64,000 nt of DNA from positions 1-64,000 of the forward strand of contig JAIRWF010000035.1 of the NCBI GenBank assembly GCA_031253335.1. Direction: 5' to 3'. Source of the stretch: Streptococcaceae bacterium. Lineage in GTDB: Bacteria; Bacillota; Bacilli; Lactobacillales; Streptococcaceae. Both the position numbers and the translations under genes were made by a program. The notes beneath the pieces are model-generated. The model saw only the letters and a list, made by a program, of their open reading frames with translations, was not told where the DNA came from and did not search any database. Positions 1-63,072 of the stretch are shown piece by piece. Every line of letters begins with the position of its first letter. Position 1 is the first letter of the stretch.

Positions 1-3000
1 CCACTTGTACTCAAACTCGTCGAATTTGACAAACTTGCGCTGTCTGATAAACTGTCAGAATTTGACAAGCTGTTTGAAGTTGATGTGCTGATAGAGTTAG
101 AAAGACTCGCTGAATTAGAGTTTGAAAGACTTCCTGAATTAGACACGCTCGTACTATTTGATAGACTGCCGCTTGTGCTCAAGCTTTCTGAATTCGACGA
201 ACTCCCAGACTGGCTCAAGCTTTCTGAGTCTGATAAGCTTCCTGAATTTGACAGACTTCCACTATTTGACAAGCTACCACTATTGCTCAAGCTCTCCGAA
301 TTTGACAGACTCGTACTGTTTGACAAGCTACCGCTGTTACTTAAACTTTCAGAATTTGACAGACTCGTACTGTTTGACAAACTACCACTATTGCTCAAGC
401 TCTCCGAATTTGACAGACTCGTACTGTTTGACAAGCTGTCGCTGTTACTCAAACTCTCTGAGCCTGATAAGCTCCCCGAGTTTGACAAACTGCTACTATT
501 ACTCAAACTTTCACTTGTTGACAGACTTGTCAAATTTGACAGACTCATGGAATCAGAGAGACTGCCGCTCGTAAGCTCCGACGTTGAATTTGACAGGCTC
601 ACTGAGCCCGACTCACTAAGTGAGAGTGATGTGGAATCTTCTTCATAGACGACCATAAATGCCTGCATGGCACTATCTGTCTGAGATGTCCCATTCGCAG
701 TCGTATCAAAGAGTCCATTAGCCAAAAGAGCTGCCGCGAGCGTTTCGTAGCTCTTCCCGTCAGGCCCCACCACATGATAAGTGTAGCCCACCCGCGCGAG
801 GTCCGCATCCGTCACAGGCAGTGCAATCGTCCCATTCGACACGCCCGCACTGCTATAACCATTTCCTGCTATCACCGTATTTGGGATTGCAGGATAAGCC
901 GCTCCTGTCCCAGGATTTACACTAGGTGCGTTCTCTGAAACAACCCCCGCAAGCTGATAATCAGGCATCAGCAAAATCGTTAAACTCTGAGGCACACTGT
1001 CTGTGCTATTTCCACCATTTTCCGTGGCATCAAAGGTAAATAAGGTTCCCGCCACACTCGGATCCAAATGATAACCTGAAATAATCCCAGAAGTCACTAA
1101 CTGCGCCCAGGTCAGGCTTTCCCCCGTCGTTCCTGTAATACTGAGCGCAGACTGCTCAGGAATCGGACGACCCGCACTATCTGTAAAGGTTACATTGACC
1201 GTCTGACTATCTGCTGCCACATACAAAGTCGTCACAGCATTCGTCGTCGAAACAAGCGTACTAACAGGCTGCGTCTTTCCAGAAAGCTCAGACGCTCCAG
1301 CATAATGCCAACCCGCAGGTAAATTCCCACCTTTTCCCGTCGAAGTCGTATAATAACTAGCCGTCCAGCTAATTGTATTGCCATAGTTCGCAGGCGGAAG
1401 TGCCGTTCCAGCAGCCTCTTCTCCCATATTCGCCCCAGGCATACTGTTTGTTGCGATGACCTGACCTGTTTTCACATCCACATACTGATACGTTACCGAC
1501 TGAGCCGTCCCATAGACATAGATTTTATAGCTATTGGTCTGACCTCCCACAGGTACAATCGCATAATTCGCCTGTCCCAACGCATCCCCATTATCCGTCG
1601 TTGTCGTGGGATCACCCCCTGACTGATGGTCAGAAGCTGCGCCTGCATACGTCTGTACGCCCAAAGCCCACATATAGTTTGCTGGCATATGATCAAGCGC
1701 ATAATCCGTCGTCGCAAGATTTAACTGCTCACCAATAAAGCTGCCTTCAGCCTTGCTAAAATCCACCGAGTAAGTTCCCACAACCTTTCCCGTACTATCT
1801 ACATAGCTGATTTGAATCACGCCAGGCGTCAAGGCAAGGGTTTTTATCGCATTCGTATTCCCTGCAAGCTGCGTTGTCACCAGATTCCCCGAATAATCCA
1901 TCGCCGTAGCTGTCGAGCCATTAGAGACCTTCAAGGTTTGGAAAGCCACACCTGGTGCATTGGTTGCTGTGTTTGAGAGTGCCGTATTATTCCAAACTGA
2001 GATGGCCGAGTTATTCATGTTGAAGCTTGACATCCCTGAGAGATTAAAAATCGAGTTTCCCGTTGCATTTCCATTGTTATTATTGATGGCAAGCGATTTT
2101 GGTGAGATAAAACGCACCAACTGCGAACTATTCATGTAAAAGACGGAGGTGTTAGACGTCTGGTTGATTGTGAGTACTGTCCCTGGATTAAAGACCATCG
2201 CAAAGGTTCCGCCCTGCGCATTATCCACCCCATCAAAGGTATTCCCCGTGATGCCCACATAAGGCGCAGTAATCGTTGCATTTTGCCCATACTGGTAGAA
2301 CGCATTCAGCACACTCGCATTTCCGCGCGAGCTAAAGTCATCTGCTAACGTCACATTAAACTTCTGTTTGAACCAAGCTGCATTCATGGACAGGCTCTGC
2401 TCAACACTATTGGCGTTTCCAGCACCACCAGCCCCCCAGAGCGAAAGATTCCGCAAAAGCCCCGCATAGCCGTTGTAGGTCGCATTAAAGTTATCTCCCG
2501 TGATAAAATACCCATAATCTCCCCAGAAAGGCGCCCGATCGGAGACTGAGTTCGGCATGGTAAACGTCAAGGTCACATTGTCTCCAATCGCAACCCCATG
2601 CACCGCACCTGTGTCAGATGCTGTATTGACATGATCCCACGACATGAAATAAACCCCGCTATCTGTCGTGTTATCCGCTGTCGTCTGATAGCTAATTGTT
2701 GCCCCATTTGCAATATTCAACGCGCCAACCGTCATGAACTCTGCCATCGTGTTCCACTGGACATTTCCTGAGAGCGTCACGAGCGAGTCCTCCGCATCTA
2801 CAAGACGTGCCGGCATGTTTTGATTGTACGAGCCTGTCACCACGGCTTGCGCAAGTGCTGGGTCTTGTGTCACATTGTTGATATTGAACTCCCACTTACC
2901 ATCATTGGTTGCAGCCGTTCCAAAAGGCGACATGATGACCGAGCGTTGTGAGCCCGAAGAAGCCGAGTGATCGCTTGAGAGCTGGGACAAAATGACATTT

Positions 3001-5154: not shown

Positions 5155-5161
5155 CGCTTTT
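5140..5161. terminator. Bidirectional intrinsic terminator between the GIY-YIG gene and pyrE
   Basis: aaaagcgctaagtagcgctttt inverted repeat with A/T flanks. Confidence 0.7.
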
Positions 5162-5792
5162 AATGTTGCCAACTTTCCTGATTTTCCTTGAATCGTTTGA
5201 GTAATTCGAGTTCATCGGCTGTCACGTAGCCCGTCTCTTGTGCGATTTCAATCAAATGACTGTAATTGGTGAGGGTCACGAGTATGCGACCTGCTGCTTC
5301 AAAATTTGCCACTGCTTTTGGCAACTCATAGGTGAAAATCGCTGCAACTCCTAAGATTTCAGCACCTTCCCGTTCCGCCGCAGCCACTGCTTCAAGGACA
5401 GAACCTCCCGTTGAGATGAGGTCTTCGATGACGACCATCTTTTGTCCAGGCGTCACGCGTCCCTCCACTTGATTCCCAGCGCCGTGGTCTTTGGGTTTTG
5501 AGCGAATATAAGCAAAAGGTAAATTCATTTTATCCGCAATAATCGCCCCATGCGGAATGCCTGCTGTTGCCGTTCCCGCAATGACTTCAGCATCTGGAAA
5601 CTCCGCTTTTAGAAGCTCCACAAAACCATCTTCAATGTGCGTGCGCACCTCGGGATAGGCAAGGGTCACCCGATTATCCGTATAAATTGGCGATTGAATT
5701 CCCGACGCCCAAGTAAAAGGCGCACTGGGGGACAACGTCACCGCCTTAATCTTAAGTAAATCCTCTGCAATTTGTGTCGCTGTATCAGTCAT
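5160..5792 (-). CDS. pyrE: Orotate phosphoribosyltransferase
   Basis: [41 protein letters not shown]...[20 protein letters not shown] at 5792 is preceded by GGAGG. Confidence 0.95.
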
Positions 5793-5945
5793 AATGCCTC
5801 CCAAATTTGATACTTCATTTTATCACGAAATCCCTTGTCTGTCAGATTTGACAAGATATATCACTCCATTTTTGTTAAATTTGACAACTTCCAGATAACC
5901 AAAAAGTCTGTCAATTTTTGAAATGACAGTATTTGATAGCTTTTA

Positions 5946-6181
5946 AGGTTACCTCTATCTCCGCGCTTTGCGCTGCGCTGTCCATGCTCGCTAAGCCAGC
6001 AAAGCTGGCAAGTCGCATGGCAACTCCCTGCTTTTCGCCTAGCTAAAGCAGGTCCATTCGCTCTAAGTGACTAAAGTGCCGTAGCGAAGGATGGCTGTTG
6101 GTGCGGTCTGCACCTTACAGCGATGCTAGTAGGATTATCAGAGCGGACAGCCCGACACAAGTGGCGAAGATAGACACGTCC
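5946..6181 (-). repeat. Large structured intergenic element (member C of the ggRcgtgtcta...tagaggtaacct family)
   Basis: Minus strand begins ggacgtgtctatct and ends agatagaggtaacct. Internal inverted repeats: GCTGTCC/GGACAGC, GGTGC/GCACC within GCTGT/ACAGC, TTCGCT/AGCGAA, CCTGCTTT/AAAGCAGG, CCATGC/GCATGG, GCCAGC/GCTGGC. Confidence 0.6.
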
Positions 6182-6186
6182 TTAAC

Positions 6187-8484
6187 TTAATTGCGTTTCT
6201 TTTTGCGATTGCTTGCTGAAACATATTGCGCAGCTGCAAGGCCAAGTCCCGCCATAATGAATGTATAACCTGCTGTTGTCATGCCATAGTCATCTCGGTC
6301 CTCAGTTTGTGGGAGAGTCTTATTGTAGCTCACAGGAATCAGATGAACTGGAGTTTCTGGCTTCGGCAAGCTAACTGGCTGGGAAGTCGGCTTATAACTC
6401 TCTGGAGTTGGAACATGGGGCTTAGCTGACGTTTTGGGGTTCGTAATACTGGGGCTTGTCTCAGATACTGGTAATTTCTCCCATTGTGCCTTTAACGTGA
6501 GATTCGCAGTCACATGAGGATAGCTACTCCCTGGTTGATAGCTTTTCCCATCGCTTCCTGCCCAAGCAATGAATTTATAGCCCGCACGCGTTGGAATCTT
6601 AGACGAAAGTGTATAAGAATCATTTTCTTTGACGACCGCTTCATCTGGTGCTCCTTTTCCACCATTGGCATCGTAAAATACTGTGTAGGTCTGATAGACT
6701 GTGATATACTGCAGTTCATCTTGCTCAATGTCGGACGAATCAAGTCCAGATTGCGGATCTGTTGTAACCACAAGGTCAGTGTTCGGGTCTGTGTAGGTAT
6801 AAGTAACCGTATATTTTCCAGCCTGAGCGACTTTAAAAGTACCATCCTCAGAGACGTTTGAAACGATATTTCCAGACGGGTCATACACAGTAAGAGTCAG
6901 GTCACCTGCTGCAAGCGCAGAAAGAATTTGACTGTTTGTAAGCTGATTGCCTGCTGAGCCATAAACTTTTAGGCCCTGACTGGCATTTGAAAGTTGTTTC
7001 GGATCAACCGTTGTGTTCACTAGGACAGTCTGGTCTGGTCCTGGTGTAATGGCAAGGTAAATCACACTAATTGTCTGATTGATAAACGCAAGGTTTCCCT
7101 CAGAATCCTCCCATTGCCACTCTACCGTATAGGTTTTCGTATAATCTTCATCTGCCGTACCACCAGAAGGAAGAGAGTAAGTCCCATCCGCATTAGCCGT
7201 TAAAGGCGTAAGCGTCTCATCATCATTGTCCGTGATGATAACGGTCGGTTTTGCGGAACTATCCGTTGGATCAACTACCGAGACGCCTTGCTTACTTGGA
7301 TCATACGTATAAGCACTTGGCGCGCTTACACGCCCCGTAATCGCAGGTTGATAAGGATCTGTTGCTTGCAAACCTGCTACATTTATTGTTCGCATATCGG
7401 TCAATCCACCATAGCTAAACACCACCGTATAGACACCGGCTTCATCTGGCGAAAAACTTGTGACACCCGTATCTAAGGTCGTATTTTGATAGTAAGAATC
7501 CGAATCTGGCCCCGTAACAGTAATCGTTGCATCGCTCAAATCTCCATTTGGCGTGCTATTTTTAAGTGCTTCAATCGACGACAAATCAAAGACACCACCA
7601 TCACTATCCGCAAGGCCTTGAAGACTTATTGACGTTGTTCCACCAAGCTGACTAAACGCCACCGTATTATCAATCTCAGGAGAGACATTAATCACTGCAG
7701 TTGCCGATATTGTCACACTTTTTTGCTCCAGCGTCGTATAGGTATAATTATAGCTTACTGTATAACTTCCCGCGACATCAGGCGTAAAGCTACCTGAGCT
7801 GATGTCAGTTGCTAGATTACTTCCTGAAGGGACACTAGTTAAACTTATTGACGTAAGGCTGCCATTTCCCAACTCATCTGGATCCGTTATGGTCGCATTT
7901 GTAGGTAATGTGATTGCCGTCCCGACAGTGCCTGTCGTTGGGATGCCATCAGGAGCACTAATGCTAGGAGTTGTTGGGGTATCTTGTGACCAACTATCAC
8001 CCCCATTATAGATTAAAATGTGTCCTGACGTACTTGAAAGTGTCGTGTTAGCATCGTATTCTGCAATTTTTGTGAAGCTATTGTCCCAACTTGTACTTCC
8101 AGCATCATTGATGTTTGGGCTCGTCCCCAGGATAAAGGAAATCATTCCTGCATTCGTCGTGAGTGGAACATTTGCAACGTAAGCCGTCCCAGCGCTATTT
8201 AGCGTCAGAACTACGTAACTGCCACTTCCACTGCCATACCATACCCAGGCATAAGGCGTCCCTGAAGAAACTTGACTCGCACTTATACCAATCGTTACTG
8301 TATTTGCAGCAGGTGCGTCTGCATAAACGCTAATACCTTGCTCGTCAAAGAGCACAGTCGGCGCCACTAGTCCCACAGAAAGAGTAGCCAAAAGCGAGGC
8401 CCCGTAGAGCCAAACTTTTTTTGTTTTATGTGCAGCCTCTAAGCTCGGATGAAGACGCTGTATCCTACTAAAACGTGTTGCCAT
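6187..8484 (-). CDS. LPXTG (LPQTE) cell-wall-anchored protein with putative starch/carbohydrate-binding N-domain and an InlB-type repeat
   Basis: Signal-like N-terminus, YAWVWYGSGSGSYVVL...WSQDTP domain, TVFYDANGGKGAPDEAVVKENDSYTL...GYKFIAWAGSDG repeat, LPQTEDRDDYG + TM + KKKRN. Confidence 0.85.
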   Translation of the reverse strand: MATRFSRIQRLHPSLEAAHKTKKVWLYGASLLATLSVGLVAPTVLFDEQGISVYADAPAANTVTIGISASQVSSGTPYAWVWYGSGSGSYVVLTLNSAGTAYVANVPLTTNAGMISFILGTSPNINDAGSTSWDNSFTKIAEYDANTTLSSTSGHILIYNGGDSWSQDTPTTPSISAPDGIPTTGTVGTAITLPTNATITDPDELGNGSLTSISLTSVPSGSNLATDISSGSFTPDVAGSYTVSYNYTYTTLEQKSVTISATAVINVSPEIDNTVAFSQLGGTTSISLQGLADSDGGVFDLSSIEALKNSTPNGDLSDATITVTGPDSDSYYQNTTLDTGVTSFSPDEAGVYTVVFSYGGLTDMRTINVAGLQATDPYQPAITGRVSAPSAYTYDPSKQGVSVVDPTDSSAKPTVIITDNDDETLTPLTANADGTYSLPSGGTADEDYTKTYTVEWQWEDSEGNLAFINQTISVIYLAITPGPDQTVLVNTTVDPKQLSNASQGLKVYGSAGNQLTNSQILSALAAGDLTLTVYDPSGNIVSNVSEDGTFKVAQAGKYTVTYTYTDPNTDLVVTTDPQSGLDSSDIEQDELQYITVYQTYTVFYDANGGKGAPDEAVVKENDSYTLSSKIPTRAGYKFIAWAGSDGKSYQPGSSYPHVTANLTLKAQWEKLPVSETSPSITNPKTSAKPHVPTPESYKPTSQPVSLPKPETPVHLIPVSYNKTLPQTEDRDDYGMTTAGYTFIMAGLGLAAAQYVSASNRKKKRN

Positions 8485-20730: not shown

Positions 20731-22002
20731 TTAGAGTTCCTTTCTATAAACAATCTTGCCATCCACCATCGTAAGTCGCGTCTCCCCATAAAGTTCCCAG
20801 CCAATAAAAGGTGTGTTCGTCCCTTTAGAAAGAAAATCTTTGGGGTCAACGCTAAATTCTTTTTTGAGATCAAAAAGGACAAGGTCCGCTGGGTCACCGA
20901 TGTGAAGTTGACCTGCGTTCGTGATGTTGAAAGCTTTGACAGGCGCAGTGCTCATCCATTTTTGGAGCTGTTCAAGTGTAAAAATACCCGTCTGGACAAA
21001 TTTGGTATAGAGAAGCGCAAAAGCTTGTTCGATATTTACGATGCCAAAGGCTCCCTCTCGGAAACTTCCTGATTTTTCTGCCGTTGTGTGGGGGGCTTGA
21101 TCAGTCGCAATCATGTCAATCGTCCCGTCTAAGAGCCCTGTGAGGAGGGCTTCTTGGTCTACTTGGGTCGGTAGAGGTGGGTTCATCTTGTATAGCGCAT
21201 TATCTTCTGGGATGTCTTTGACGGCAAGGAGTAAGTGGTGAGGTGCAACTTCTGCTGTAACATGGACGCCATTAGCTTTCGCCTTTCGCACAAGATCGAC
21301 AGTTTCTTTGGTGGAGATGTGGCAGATATGGTAATGGACACCCGTTTCTTTCGCAAGTTTTAAATCACGAGCAACTTGTTCGTATTCAGTCTCAGGCTTC
21401 CATTCTGGAAGACCAAACTTGCCTTCACGGATGACTCCGCCCGCCATGAGGTTTTTATTCTCGGCATGGGCGACAATGGCTTTATGAAGTTTTGTAGCTT
21501 CTGTCATGGCTTGTCGCATGGTGTCTTCAGTCTGCACGCCATTGCCATCGTTACTAAAGGCAAAAGCACCAGACTTAGCGAGTAAGGAGAGCTCTACTAA
21601 ATCTTCTGTCATCCGATTTTGGGTGATTGAAGCGTAAGGTAAGACCTTGACAACTGCATCTTTTTCGATAATGTCTTGCTCGACTTTCAGGTGTTCTGGC
21701 GTGTCAGGCACAGGGTTAAGGGTCGGCATGGCGCAGATTGTCGTGTAGCCCCCATGTGCTGCTGCTTTAGTACCTGTTACAATTGTTTCTTTTGCTTCAA
21801 AACCTGGCTCACGCAAGTGCGTATGGACATCGACGAGACCTGGCATCACAAGAGCTCCATGTGCATCCAGGACTTCGCCTTCTTCATCAATGATTCCAGA
21901 ATTCATGGCGACGATTTTTCCGTCTTCGATAACTACCATAATAGGTTCTAGTTGGTTGTCTCGCACAATACGGCGAGCCTTGGTGATAATTGTTTTTGTC
22001 AT
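20731..22002 (-). CDS. pyrC: Dihydroorotase
   Basis: [39 protein letters not shown]. Confidence 0.97.
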
Positions 22003-22907
22003 TTAAGCACACTTTCTAGTATTGCCATGCGGGCATAGACGCCATTTGTCATTTGCTTCACGATACGTGATTGTGGAGATTCAACGAGGGCGTCTGCGAG
22101 CTCTACGTCCCGATTGACAGGGGCAGGGTGCATGATAATGGCATTGCCTTTCATTTGAGACGCACGTTCAAGCGTTAACCCGTACTCTTTATGGTAGTCC
22201 GCTTTTGAAAAGCTTGCATTTGCTTTTTCGTCTTGGCGCTCGTGCTGAACGCGGAGAAGCATAACGACATCAGACGTTTGGACTAAATCGTCCATCGCAA
22301 GGAATTGCCCATATTGGTCGAAATCCGGATTGTACCATTCTTTTGGGCCTGAGAAATAAACTTTGGCTCCGAGTTTAGTCAGCATTTGGGCGTTACTACG
22401 TGCGACGCGGGAGTGACTGATGTCACCAGCAATGCCCACTTGAAGGCCCGTAAAATCACCGAACTCTTCTTGGATGGTCATGAGGTCTAACAAACACTGG
22501 CTTGGGTGTTGGCCAGAGCCATCGCCGCCGTTTACAATCGCACAATGGATGTTCTCAGAGTTAATCAGCTCGTCGTAATAATGGTCCGTGGAATGGCGCA
22601 AAACGCAGACTTCCACACCCAGTGCATCAAGAGTTAGTACTGTATCATACAGTGTCTCACCTTTTTTGACACTGGATTGGCTTGCATTAAACTCGAGAAC
22701 GTCAAGACCGAGTTTGCGTTCTGCGATGTGAAAGCTATTATGCGTGCGGGTGGAGTTTTCAAAAAAGAGATTGGCGGCAAAGATTTGCTTGTTAGGCTTA
22801 TCCCAGCTTGCACCTGACTTGAACTCACGTGCACGTTTCAATAGGGCTAGGATTTCGTCTGGCGTGTAGTCTTCCATGGAAACGAAATGTTTTCGGCTTT
22901 TTATCAA
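21999..22907 (-). CDS. pyrB: Aspartate carbamoyltransferase catalytic subunit
   Basis: [44 protein letters not shown]. Confidence 0.97.
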
Positions 22908-22913
22908 AAAAAT

Positions 22914-23030
22914 CTCCTGTCTAAAAGGCAGGAGAAGTTATCAAAAAGTACCCATTTTTGCTTAATTTTCCTACCTTTTTCGCCTCTCTGGACGAACTTA
23001 AAGGTAAGTTCATTCTACCAAATTTGGCTG
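22914..23030 (-). promoter_or_regulatory. PyrR-type attenuator leader of the pyr operon
   Basis: Minus strand cgTCCAGAGAGGcg matches the PyrR binding-loop consensus; followed by terminator hairpin ctcctgccttttagacaggagattttttt before pyrB. Confidence 0.85.
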
Positions 23031-29971: not shown

Positions 29972-30727
29972 TCATTCCAAACAAGCTCCGGACGTCTTTT
30001 GTAATTCTCTAAGCTCCGCATCTGAAAGCGCCCTGTAGTCGCCCTCAGAAAGCCCCGCATCCAGCACTAGGCTTCCCATACGCACCCGCTGTAAACTCTT
30101 GACCTCCATGCCCACCGCGCGAAACATCCGCTTTACCTGATGGTACACCCCCCGATGAATCACCAAACGAACCAGGCTCTGGTAGCCACTCTTCATCACA
30201 TCATCTTTTGTAATAGTCTCAAGCGTCAGCTCCCCCACAAAAGGATTTCCCTTTTCGCCATGAAGCGCAACCCCAGCCGCAAAAGCCTCTATCGTTCTTT
30301 TCGTTACGTGTCCATCCACTCGCACGTGATACTCCTTTGCCACATGCTTGTGCGGGCTCAAAAGATGGTGTGCCAAATCTCCGTCATTGGTTAAAAGCAA
30401 AAGCCCCGTCGTGTCTTTATCAAGCCTTCCTGCTGGAAACAAATCCGCCCGATAGTCCCCAGGACGCAAGAGTGACATCACCGTCTGATGCACATTATCC
30501 TGCGTCACACTTACAAGCCCCGCAGGTTTATTTAGCATGTAGTAAAAGAGCGTCTGATGCACGACCGGCACCCCGTCAAATTTGACAGCCACCAAATTCG
30601 CATCAATTTGCATTTTGTCAGATTTGACAAGGACATCATCTACTGTAATGCGTCCTTTTTTGATGAAGGTCTTAACCTCCGAGCGCGTCCCTAGCCCACT
30701 TTCAGCCAAATACTTATCCAGTCTCAT
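29972..30727 (-). CDS. rsuA: 16S rRNA pseudouridine synthase (RsuA family with S4 domain)
   Basis: MRLDKYLAESGLGTRSEVKTFIKKGRITVDD; FPAGRLDKDTTGLLLLTNDG. Confidence 0.92.
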   Translation of the reverse strand: MRLDKYLAESGLGTRSEVKTFIKKGRITVDDVLVKSDKMQIDANLVAVKFDGVPVVHQTLFYYMLNKPAGLVSVTQDNVHQTVMSLLRPGDYRADLFPAGRLDKDTTGLLLLTNDGDLAHHLLSPHKHVAKEYHVRVDGHVTKRTIEAFAAGVALHGEKGNPFVGELTLETITKDDVMKSGYQSLVRLVIHRGVYHQVKRMFRAVGMEVKSLQRVRMGSLVLDAGLSEGDYRALSDAELRELQKTSGACLE

Positions 30728-30774
30728 GGCTTATATTATACGCTAAATCCAGATTTTTTTGATATACTTAAAAC

Positions 30775-31494
30775 ATGAAAAAATCACTCCTCATCGGCGC
30801 TGTTATCCTTGCCAGCTTGAGCCTTGCGGGCTGTTCGGCAAAGAAAAAAACCTCAAGCGACGGCATGAATCAAATCACCCAAACGACACCAGCCACCCCA
30901 ACCACCGTGGCTGAGCTCGCCGGTATGGTTGCCTCCAATCATTACAGCACGACAGCCCTCTATCAGTTCACAGGCACCTTTGTCAACTCTAGCTCCTGGG
31001 CTTACGTCTCCAGCAACAACACCTACAACGTCCAGATTTCGGGAAACGGTAGCACGCTGAACCTCTCTGCACCTGCTGATGACGTCAACACCTGGACGGA
31101 CAACACGCAAGCAAGCGTCACTGTCCGTGTGAGTCGTAGCAGTAAAGGCACAAGCGTTCTCGTTACCTCAGCCACTGTCACAAGCGGTGCCACGACCCTA
31201 AACGACAAAGTTCAAGGCGCCTTTGATAGCGTTACAGCAAGCATCAACAAGCAGCTCGGTGCCACAGGTATTGACTCTGTCACGCTAAATGGCTCATTTC
31301 CAGACTATAACGTCAATCTTGATAGCAACCTCAACCAAATGTCCACCGCAAATCTCGACTCATCCATCACCAATATCAACAGCAGCTACACAGGATCTGT
31401 TTCAAAGTACAACGTCAAACCTACCCTCCACTACATTCTAGGTGGTAAAGAAATCGCCAAAGCTACAAACGGCGGTGCTGCAGTCATCGAATAA
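30775..31494 (+). CDS. Secreted lipoprotein of unknown function
   Basis: Lipobox: MKKSLLIGAVILASLSLAGCSAKKK. Confidence 0.85.
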   Translation: MKKSLLIGAVILASLSLAGCSAKKKTSSDGMNQITQTTPATPTTVAELAGMVASNHYSTTALYQFTGTFVNSSSWAYVSSNNTYNVQISGNGSTLNLSAPADDVNTWTDNTQASVTVRVSRSSKGTSVLVTSATVTSGATTLNDKVQGAFDSVTASINKQLGATGIDSVTLNGSFPDYNVNLDSNLNQMSTANLDSSITNINSSYTGSVSKYNVKPTLHYILGGKEIAKATNGGAAVIE

Positions 31495-31498
31495 ATCA

Positions 31499-31527
31499 TA
31501 AAAAACGACTCAGCGGTCGTTTTTTTA
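31499..31527. terminator. Bidirectional intrinsic terminator
   Basis: aaaaaacgactcagcggtcgttttttt. Confidence 0.8.
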
Positions 31528-49794: not shown

Positions 49795-49915
49795 GGGCGT
49801 GTCTAAAAACCGTTTTGCTTTTGAAGGCGAACTCAGCGACGCGTTCATTTACTTGGCCACCTGGCCAAGCGCTGTCGCGTGGTTCGATGAAAAAGCAGGC
49901 TTTTAGAGGTAACCT
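49795..49915 (+). repeat. Structured intergenic element (member A)
   Basis: gggcgtgtctaaaa...CTTGGCCAccTGGCCAAG...ttttagaggtaacct; nested complementary stems. Confidence 0.75.
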
Positions 49916-56739: not shown

Positions 56740-58392
56740 TCAACTGAGTCCTTCAATCTCTCCCTCATCTGAGATCGTCATGCGCAGTGCCGCAGGCTCT
56801 TTTGGAAGTCCAGGCATCGTCAAGACTTTCCCCGTCAAAGCGACGATAAAGCCTGCGCCTAATTTTGGAATTAAACGCCTGACGTGCAAGGTCCAGCCTT
56901 CAGGAGCCCCCAAAACTTTTGCATCATCGGAAAAGCTTGCGGGGGTCTTTGCCACACAAATGGGCAAATCCTGCCAGCCATTTGCCTCAATTTCTGCCAA
57001 GTCTGTCTGTGCTTCTTCCGACAACTCCCAAGCCTCGCCCCCATAATACTTCGTCAACTTCCAAAGTTTCTTGTCCAGCGTTTGATTTTCATTTTGCAAC
57101 GATTCAAATTGAGCAGATTCTTGGCTTGCCGTCTTCACTAGCTCCGCCAGTTTCACAGCACCCTTGGAGCCTTCCACAAAGCTGGAAATGACCTCCGCCG
57201 AAATGCCACACTCAGACACAAGCTCCTTCAGTCGCGAAATTTCAGCTTCCGTATCCGTCCCAAAGCGATTTATCGCGACCACCACTGGCGCACCAAACTT
57301 TTGCATATTGCGAATATGGCGACGCAGATTGATAAATCCTGCTTCCAAAGCAGCTACATCCTCTACATTGTAATTTTCAGCTCCTCCATGGAATTTTAAG
57401 GCTCGACAGGTCGCGACAATGACCACAACATCAGGCGATTTTCCGAGTACTGGCGATACAATATCCATAAATTTCTCTGCGCCCAGATCTGCCCCAAATC
57501 CTGCTTCCGTCACCGCCCAATCGCCATATGTCAACGCTGCTTGAGTGGCTAAAATCGAGTTACAACCATGCGCAATATTTGCAAAGGGTCCACCATGCAC
57601 AAAAGCCGCATTACCTTCTAGCGTCTGTACCAAATTTGGCTTCAGCGCAACTTTCAATAAAATCGCTGCTGCATCCACACAGCCCAAATCTGTGACTGTG
57701 ACTGGTTTTCCTACTGTATTAAAAGCCACCACGATACGCCCCAAGCGTTTTTTCAAATCCGCAAGACCCGTTGCAAGACAAAAGACTGCCATGATTTCAG
57801 AGGCGACAACAATATCAAAGCCATCCTGACGTTCAACCCCATTGACTTTCGCACCTTGTCCCACCGTAATCTCCCGCAAGACCCGATCATTCGTATCGAC
57901 GACACGCTTCCACAGCACTCGCTCAGGGTCAATATCAAGCGTGCCCTGATAGATATGATTATCCAAGACAGCTGCAATGAGGTTATTCGCCGCTGCAATC
58001 GCCGCGAAATCCCCCGTAAAATGCAAATTGATGTCTTCCATGGGGATGACTTGCGCGTAACCCCCGCCCGCAGCACCGCCCTTCATGCCAAAAACAGGCC
58101 CCATGGACGGTTCACGAAGCGCTAATACCGCTTTTTCACCGATTGCATTTAAGCCATCTGCGAGACCTATGGATACGGTGGTTTTCCCTTCGCCAGCGGG
58201 TGTCGGGCTCATCGCAGTGACAAGTACCAATTTCCCTACTTTTTGAGCGTCAAAGTTCTTCGTTGCAACTTTTACTTTGTCCCAGCCGTAAGGCGTTAAG
58301 TTCTTATGCTTAATGCCCAGTTTCTCAGCAATATCAGCAATCGGAGCCGCTTTACTCTCCGCTTCTCGTGCTATTTCAATATCTGTTTTCAT
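56740..58392 (-). CDS. fhs: Formate-tetrahydrofolate ligase
   Basis: MKTDIEIAREAESKAAPIADIAEKLGIKHKNLTPYGWDKVKV; TPAGEGKTTVSIGLADGL; start chosen after AGAGGAAAT. Confidence 0.97.
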   Translation of the reverse strand: MKTDIEIAREAESKAAPIADIAEKLGIKHKNLTPYGWDKVKVATKNFDAQKVGKLVLVTAMSPTPAGEGKTTVSIGLADGLNAIGEKAVLALREPSMGPVFGMKGGAAGGGYAQVIPMEDINLHFTGDFAAIAAANNLIAAVLDNHIYQGTLDIDPERVLWKRVVDTNDRVLREITVGQGAKVNGVERQDGFDIVVASEIMAVFCLATGLADLKKRLGRIVVAFNTVGKPVTVTDLGCVDAAAILLKVALKPNLVQTLEGNAAFVHGGPFANIAHGCNSILATQAALTYGDWAVTEAGFGADLGAEKFMDIVSPVLGKSPDVVVIVATCRALKFHGGAENYNVEDVAALEAGFINLRRHIRNMQKFGAPVVVAINRFGTDTEAEISRLKELVSECGISAEVISSFVEGSKGAVKLAELVKTASQESAQFESLQNENQTLDKKLWKLTKYYGGEAWELSEEAQTDLAEIEANGWQDLPICVAKTPASFSDDAKVLGAPEGWTLHVRRLIPKLGAGFIVALTGKVLTMPGLPKEPAALRMTISDEGEIEGLS

Positions 58393-58399
58393 ATTGATT

Positions 58400-58515
58400 T
58401 CCTCTAAAAACTTTCTTTTTCGTCCAACCACGCGATAACGCTCGGCGAAATCGCCGAGTAAATAAACGTGTCGCTGAGTTGGTCTTCAAAAGAAAACCAG
58501 TTTTTAGACACGCCC
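58400..58515 (-). repeat. Structured intergenic element (member B), 5' leader position of fhs
   Basis: Minus strand gggcgtgtctaaaaactgg...CTCGGCGAttTCGCCGAG...agtttttagaggaaat; aligns along its length to member A. Confidence 0.75.
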
Positions 58516-62547: not shown

Positions 62548-63072
62548 GCAGTGTCATCAGTTTTCTATAAGCCAAGTTATGTCCGAAAAGTTGCCTTTTC
62601 TGTCTGTTCATCTGTCTATAACAAGATGCTAAGGCAAATGCATTTCGCTTTGATAGTAGCGAAATCAGGCATTTATTTACTTTAACGAAGTTAAAGTGCC
62701 TGATTGAGTAGCAACTCAAAACGAGTTTGCCCTGCTCAATTTCATTTGCATTAACATCTTCTTATCTCCGAAGTGCCTTCATTTCAGCCTTCGTAAGTGC
62801 CCCGACCGTAGTTTGGGTTGCTCGCTTGAGGGGTTTAGCACGTTCCACTCTCGTCGTTTCCCACGAGACTCGTCTCTATGCCACTTTCAAGGGACTTTCA
62901 GCAATGGCGCAAGCGCTTTAGCCGATTTTCCTGCCGTCAGGTATGACTTACCTGCGCCGCGTTATTTTTTCCGCGACCACAATCACTCCATGCGACTATT
63001 TCAAGTACTTCTCAGCATGGGCGAGCCTGGACTTTCCTCACGGCCTAAACCGTGCGAACAGCCGAAAACTGT
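62548..63072 (-). ncRNA. rnpB: RNase P RNA, bacterial type B
   Basis: Minus strand contains cggccgtGAGGAAAGUCCaggcucgc, gacggcaggaaaa, UUGAAAGUGGCAUAGAGACGAGUCUCGUGGGAAACGACGAGAGUGGAACGUGCUAAACCCCUCAAGCGAGCAACCCAAAC and the 3' acuuggcuuauagaa; terminator ccggcgaaagccggttttt. Exact ends approximate. Confidence 0.92.

Follow-up and report, generated by a model that had tools for sequence, protein, structure and literature searches.

The window, that is, the whole 64,000-nucleotide stretch of Streptococcaceae DNA analysed here, contains a 236-bp element, C, whose outer ends also enclose the quite different interior of a second element, A. How the same ends come to surround different interiors, and what kind of element C is as a result, are the questions that this locus raises. 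An earlier note, made from the letters of the sequence, had placed C at 5946-6181 on the minus strand, with the ends of A, and had listed a set of stems inside it. We confirm the position and the ends, the outer ends of A being identical, and all of the listed stems are found in the minus-strand sequence. The same note held that C lies directly after the stop codon of a gene encoding an LPQTE surface protein; C does adjoin that gene, but the gap is not zero, since 5 nt separate C from the stop codon at 6187-6189. The features of the locus, together with A and a third element, B, are as follows.

5946 to 6181, minus strand: element C, 236 bp, architecture Lc-p-c-Rc
6182 to 6184, minus strand: left copy of the target-site duplication of C, 3 bp, TAA on the minus strand
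6141 to 6181, minus strand: left-end module Lc of C, with terminal GGACGTGTCTA and arm TCTATCTTCGC...GGGCTGTCCGCTC
6082 to 6140, minus strand: module p of C, hairpin GCTGT-aa-GGTGC/GCACC-a-ACAGC
6029 to 6081, minus strand: module c of C, hairpin arm with end AGAGCGAATGGACC, next to CCTGCTTT...AAAGCAGG
5946 to 6028, minus strand: right-end module Rc of C, cassette GTTGCCATGCGACTTGCCAGC..GCATGGACAGCGCAGC..GCGGAGATAG and terminal AGAGGTAACCT
5943 to 5945, minus strand: right copy of the target-site duplication of C, 3 bp, TAA on the minus strand
6187 to 8484, minus strand: gene for the LPQTE surface protein, 765 aa, upstream of C (context only)
5160 to 5804, minus strand: gene for a phosphoribosyltransferase-domain protein, 214 aa, downstream of C (context only)
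49795 to 49915, plus strand: element A, 121 bp, simple hairpin type La-k1-Ra, with the outer ends of C
58395 to 58515, minus strand: element B, a decayed A-type copy sharing the left end, its right end decayed

On the minus strand C starts GGACGTGTCTATCT and finishes AGATAGAGGTAACCT. Its two arms are related to each other: the cassette in Rc repeats that of the left arm in inverted and diverged form. The left arm of L071, a close relative of C, aligns to the right arm with a local score of 28.5, compared with at most 16 in 300 shuffles.

We first consider whether the shared ends could be a coincidence. The genome from which the window derives is available as an assembly of 1.66 Mb in 44 contigs, 82% complete, and a genome-wide count of the terminal motif, as the earlier note had proposed, finds the exact sequence GGRCGTGTCTA 60 times, whereas its reversed control does not occur at all. 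Thus, the shared ends are not due to chance. The common ends of the family are GGRCGTGTCTA...TAGAGGTAACCT, of which 11 nt are fixed on the left and 12 nt on the right. Our family set comprises 59 elements with both ends, 58 of which were scored; it includes one left-truncated element (L029), in which what looks like the left end is coding sequence. The elements range from 120 to 614 bp in length, and the architecture of C is the commonest among them (12 of 59). A further 13 nearly full-length relatives of C, at 83-95% identity, are present in the same genome, along with about 25 that differ from it in length; A has about 20 relatives. The earlier note had named a decayed gene or ncRNA, or ends absent from other loci, as outcomes that would tell against a modular, possibly mobilised element. 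We found nothing in favour of chance similarity or of decay at a single site, and we give this explanation practically no credence, given the 60 exact start motifs against none in the control, the 14 near full-length copies, and the fact that neither C nor the longest copy matches any Rfam family, even at E-values up to 1.

The copies lie mostly in intergenic DNA, and their GC content exceeds that of their flanks (54% versus 44%). Even the longest copy holds only short ORFs on both strands, with no evident coding capacity. The outer 11-12 bp are inverted only in part (GG.....TCTA; compare GGRCGTGTCTA with AGGTTACCTCTA), a short and imperfect match; subterminal repeats are good in copies with pure A or pure C ends, and are lost in mixed copies.

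If these copies are insertions, then their flanks should retain the trace of the event. Identical 3-bp flanks are found at both ends of 36 of the 58 scored copies, compared with 8.5 expected and a maximum of 16 when right flanks are permuted 2,000 times. Matches of 2 bp, of 4 bp, or in shifted registers occur at or near background; an exact 3-bp duplication is absent in roughly 38% of copies. The duplicated sequences are A/T-rich and varied (AAA, ATA, TAA, TTA, GTA, CTA, TGA, AAT, TAT, GAA and ATC), and C itself is flanked by TAA/TAA. A second line of evidence comes from the genes rnc and smc, which are 452 bp apart in this genome; between them is a 328-bp element flanked by a TAA duplication. 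The same two genes overlap as TAATG in four of four congeners, and in several other genera they are separated by no more than a few bases; this comparison is between species, with one strain of the source species, and is not base-exact. We found no clean case of an insertion inside a gene that could be read as an empty site at the protein level. Together, the excess of duplications and the rnc-smc gap imply that the copies of the family are insertions, which supports the earlier suggestion of a possibly mobilised element. We consider it very probable that C belongs to a family of non-autonomous repeats spread by DNA transposition, and is a modular MITE resembling the BOX elements.

The duplications also bear on the type of transposition. 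The elements are small intergenic palindromes arranged in mosaics, and in this respect they are broadly similar to BIMEs, so that one might suppose them to be REP/RAYT-like palindromes moved by a Y1 (TnpA-REP) transposase. Single-strand transposition by Y1 enzymes, however, is not known to make target-site duplications, and the 3-bp duplications do not fit it; moreover, the family has two different fixed ends and elements much longer than REPs. We regard this possibility as very remote. Identity with the pneumococcal RUP was also considered and rejected, because the duplications here are 3 bp long and varied, and the 2-bp test is at background.

Having established that C is very probably a transposed copy, we turn to its interior. 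The interiors of the family are mosaics of about 20 hairpin-forming modules in about 35 architectures, and across some 58 copies they bear out the idea that shared termini with different interiors reflect modular construction. (The set of 20 modules was made by hand, with boundaries drawn by eye, and a few modules are variants of each other.) The modules follow one another in almost the same order throughout, Lc-p-h1-a-q-r-(s or w)-t-x-(c or u)-Rc, and C corresponds to the long form without the block from h1 to x. There are two left ends (La, Lc) and two right ends (Ra, Rc), and all four combinations are present. Duplications accompany each of them: 26 of 39 copies for Lc-Rc, 6 of 11 for La-Ra, 3 of 5 for Lc-Ra, and 1 of 4 for La-Rc. 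Mixed-end copies thus have duplications, and since the same 188-bp Lc...Ra form occurs at two loci (L049 and L051), mixed forms themselves move; this implies that neither the interior nor a matched terminal stem is required.

The near-constant order, and the relation of C to the long form, could be explained by loss alone. That is, a progenitor of about 600 bp or longer may have contained all of the modules, in which case the shorter forms, C included, would be internal deletions, with nothing shuffled in. Such a model concerns the origin of the interiors and is compatible with transposition. Against it stand the alternative cores, non-homologous or diverged, that are found in one and the same position (k1, k2, s-t-u, w-t-x), and the copies of the left arm that recur within elements (Lc2 twice in L072, and a second internal copy in L027). 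So does the presence of the same cassettes in other genera, within differently ended elements, which calls for exchange and not only loss. Loss alone is a possible but doubtful account.

The evidence from other genomes is as follows. Among 248 Streptococcaceae genomes, the end motif GGGCGTGTCTAAAAAC occurs in the source genome only. The inner cassettes, by contrast with the ends, recur at 90-100% identity in congeners and in a second genus, within elements having other ends. For example, congeners contain the Rc cassette, with as much as 93% identity across some 50 bp, in elements that have the ends AAGATGTGAGCCCGACTG... / ...AGTTCGCCCTC. In genus g9, which we suspect to be Lactococcus, single genomes hold as many as 15 copies of the hairpin TTCGCCTTGCGACTTTAGTCGCTTAGAGCGAA, often exact and otherwise with no more than three mismatches; several are contained in elements that open with AAGTGCGTGCTAA and close with GAAGTAATCACTT. 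Relatives of module c in another genus include hairpins identical over as many as 32 bp. Matches between genus g5 and the longest element of our own family are confined to short stretches, 29-36 bp in length. Genus g5 has intergenic hairpin mosaics of its own (L117, L129, L118 and L119, of the types CTGGGACAAAAGT... and TAGCTCCAAAGGTTTGGG...), which have 29-36-bp hairpins in common with modules r and t. In collections of plasmids and phages C has no match, and the g9-type elements have none among the plasmids; an order-wide 20-mer search, whose listing covered neither g9 nor the congeners, found nothing elsewhere in the Lactobacillales. We put forward, tentatively and as a conjecture that may well prove wrong, that hairpin cassettes, among them CTATCTCCGC-[h1]-GCTACGCTGTCCAT-[h2]-ATGGCAA and TTCGCCTTGCGACTTTAGTCGCTTAGAGCGAA, form a second order of mobile units, which pass between differently ended families and between Streptococcaceae genera, such that MITE-like elements carry a shared pool of self-folding sequences. 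The families that would exchange cassettes in this way presumably have different transposases.

It is important to ask, in addition, whether the hairpins are kept for a function in RNA. The predicted fold of C is -102.9 kcal/mol; relative to dinucleotide shuffles its z is -4.8, and not one of the 200 shuffled sequences was as stable. Across the family, z falls below -2 in 52 of 58 elements, with a mean of -4.7 compared with -1.0 for the flanks. In a comparison of nine A-type copies, both sides have changed with the pairing kept at 14 of 42 pairs, where shuffles give 6.1 and slid controls 0-2; the A-type hairpin fold is conserved by compensatory changes. Covariation in the C-type copies is uninformative, these being 92% identical. 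According to crude gene calls, a putative stop codon is no more than about 15 bp away from roughly half of all copies. These three observations, the folding, the compensatory changes and the clustering near stop codons, speak for a family of structured regulatory RNAs or attenuators, whose hairpins are kept for action in 3' UTRs or between genes and whose mobility is secondary or ancient. Yet the family has no Rfam match, the genes adjoining different copies are unrelated, and the matched terminal stem is lost in mixed-end copies. Clustering near stop codons is also expected if upstream insertions are purged. As for the paired changes, template switching is reported to create and maintain hairpins and to give compensatory changes at quasi-palindromes (PMC8794818), and so such changes can reflect either selection on the hairpin or the copying of one arm onto the other. 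We also see no strict rule of orientation relative to genes: between co-directional gene pairs, again by crude gene calls, 27 copies run 3'-to-5' and 14 the reverse. On balance we consider a primary role in RNA unlikely. If C is co-transcribed with the upstream gene, it would place a very stable hairpin in the LPQTE 3' UTR or in an intercistronic RNA.

Some copies may contribute to gene expression in another way. B lies directly upstream of a gene for formate-tetrahydrofolate ligase, and its right end holds AGAGG before the probable ATG. Judging from the sequence, the decayed right end (TTAGAGGAAATCAATATG, window 58389-58400) appears to supply the Shine-Dalgarno sequence of this gene. An A-type copy elsewhere, L005, likewise appears to supply one before an ATG.

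How, then, might a transposed repeat such as C have been moved? We envisage a DDE-type transposase, acting in trans, that would recognise both ends and insert the element at A/T-rich sites. Neither the interior nor a matched terminal stem would have to be recognised by such an enzyme, given that duplications also flank copies with mixed A and C ends. The interiors would then diversify through deletion, through template switching, and through copies recombining with one another at their inverted hairpin arms; recombination or template switching could also maintain the complementarity of the arms. Ends starting with GG and 3-bp duplications would, we presume, suit an IS5-type DDE enzyme, which we offer as a lead. 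In the 82%-complete, repeat-broken assembly we found no transposase or autonomous element with the ends GGRCGTGTCTA/TAGAGGTAACC, and neither PF01609 nor PF13340. The sole element with a PF00665 (rve) domain was rejected as the mover: it is IS30-like and frameshifted, and its ends are unrelated. An IS30-like element lies in contig C9, near 30,500-31,500 (L141), with terminal AAGTGCAACG repeats and a transposase split into two ORFs, between a glycosyltransferase gene and a sugar-nucleotide dehydratase-like gene. Several contigs (C3, C16, C20, C23 and C1) start or stop at the borders of A-type elements. Thus the repeats fragment the assembly, and could hide an autonomous IS.

Several features of a MITE are present here: short elements without transposase coding, target-site duplications, and an empty site between species. 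The closest known kind, in architecture and with no claim of membership, is the BOX elements of S. pneumoniae and S. mitis, which are modular, 67-637 bp long, restricted to few species, and possess inverted repeats and a target duplication (PMC3049150). In S. suis the BOX-type families boxA/C and boxE/F form two end-frames around the same boxB modules (PMC3049150). Our family resembles BOX in its fixed end modules around variable inner ones, its size (120-614 bp versus 67-637 bp), its stable fold, partial inverted repeats, target duplication and species restriction, and its abundance (about 60-120 copies per genome). As in S. suis, the same inner modules occur within different end-frames, here across species and genera. 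It is unlike BOX in its ends, in sharing cassettes with other-ended elements of another genus, and in its much larger set of alternative nested-hairpin modules in place of tandem boxB units; no tandem boxB-like arrays were seen in the elements, which vary by the presence, absence and choice of modules.

Other bacterial repeats are more distant. RUP, an IS630-Spn1-related MITE of pneumococcus, is likewise a short non-autonomous repeat of a related bacterial family, but it has terminal inverted repeats like those of IS630-Spn1, a TA duplication and a length that is constant at about 107 bp, whereas here the duplications are 3 bp, the interior varies, and no partner IS was found. Correia, ERIC and other bacterial MITEs are also intergenic, hairpin-forming and present in many copies; they have a single core with internal deletions, whereas the present family combines about 20 modules in about 35 ways, and its GC content above the flanks sets it apart from them and from AT-rich MITEs. 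REP/BIME mosaics share the palindromes between genes, but not the fixed ends with 3-bp duplications or the defined unit of 120-614 bp.

BOX repeats have been known for decades, although to our knowledge neither their mover nor the source of their modules is known. The present family displays modular assembly at a larger scale, with the same cassettes behind at least three end pairs in two genera. The part that is mobilised (the ends) can thereby be separated from the part that is exchanged (the cassettes), and the many natural combinations make the origin of modules testable. There is a practical consequence too, in that such repeats break MAG assemblies, several contigs stopping exactly at element borders.

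Several minor observations accompany these results. In contig C22, at about 22,000-22,200, a truncated A-type copy (L085) abuts a stretch that looks like a CRISPR array, with the repeat GGTTTTGGGGGCATTCTATTCAACACGGCGCTAAAAC and spacers of about 30 bp. Within the window, positions 1-300 (minus strand) encode part of a serine-rich repeat surface protein (SLSNSGSLSNS...), from an adhesin-like gene that extends past the window edge. Gathering-level Rfam matches identify a PyrR binding site at 22904-23008 and a class B RNase P RNA at 62563-63069, both on the minus strand.
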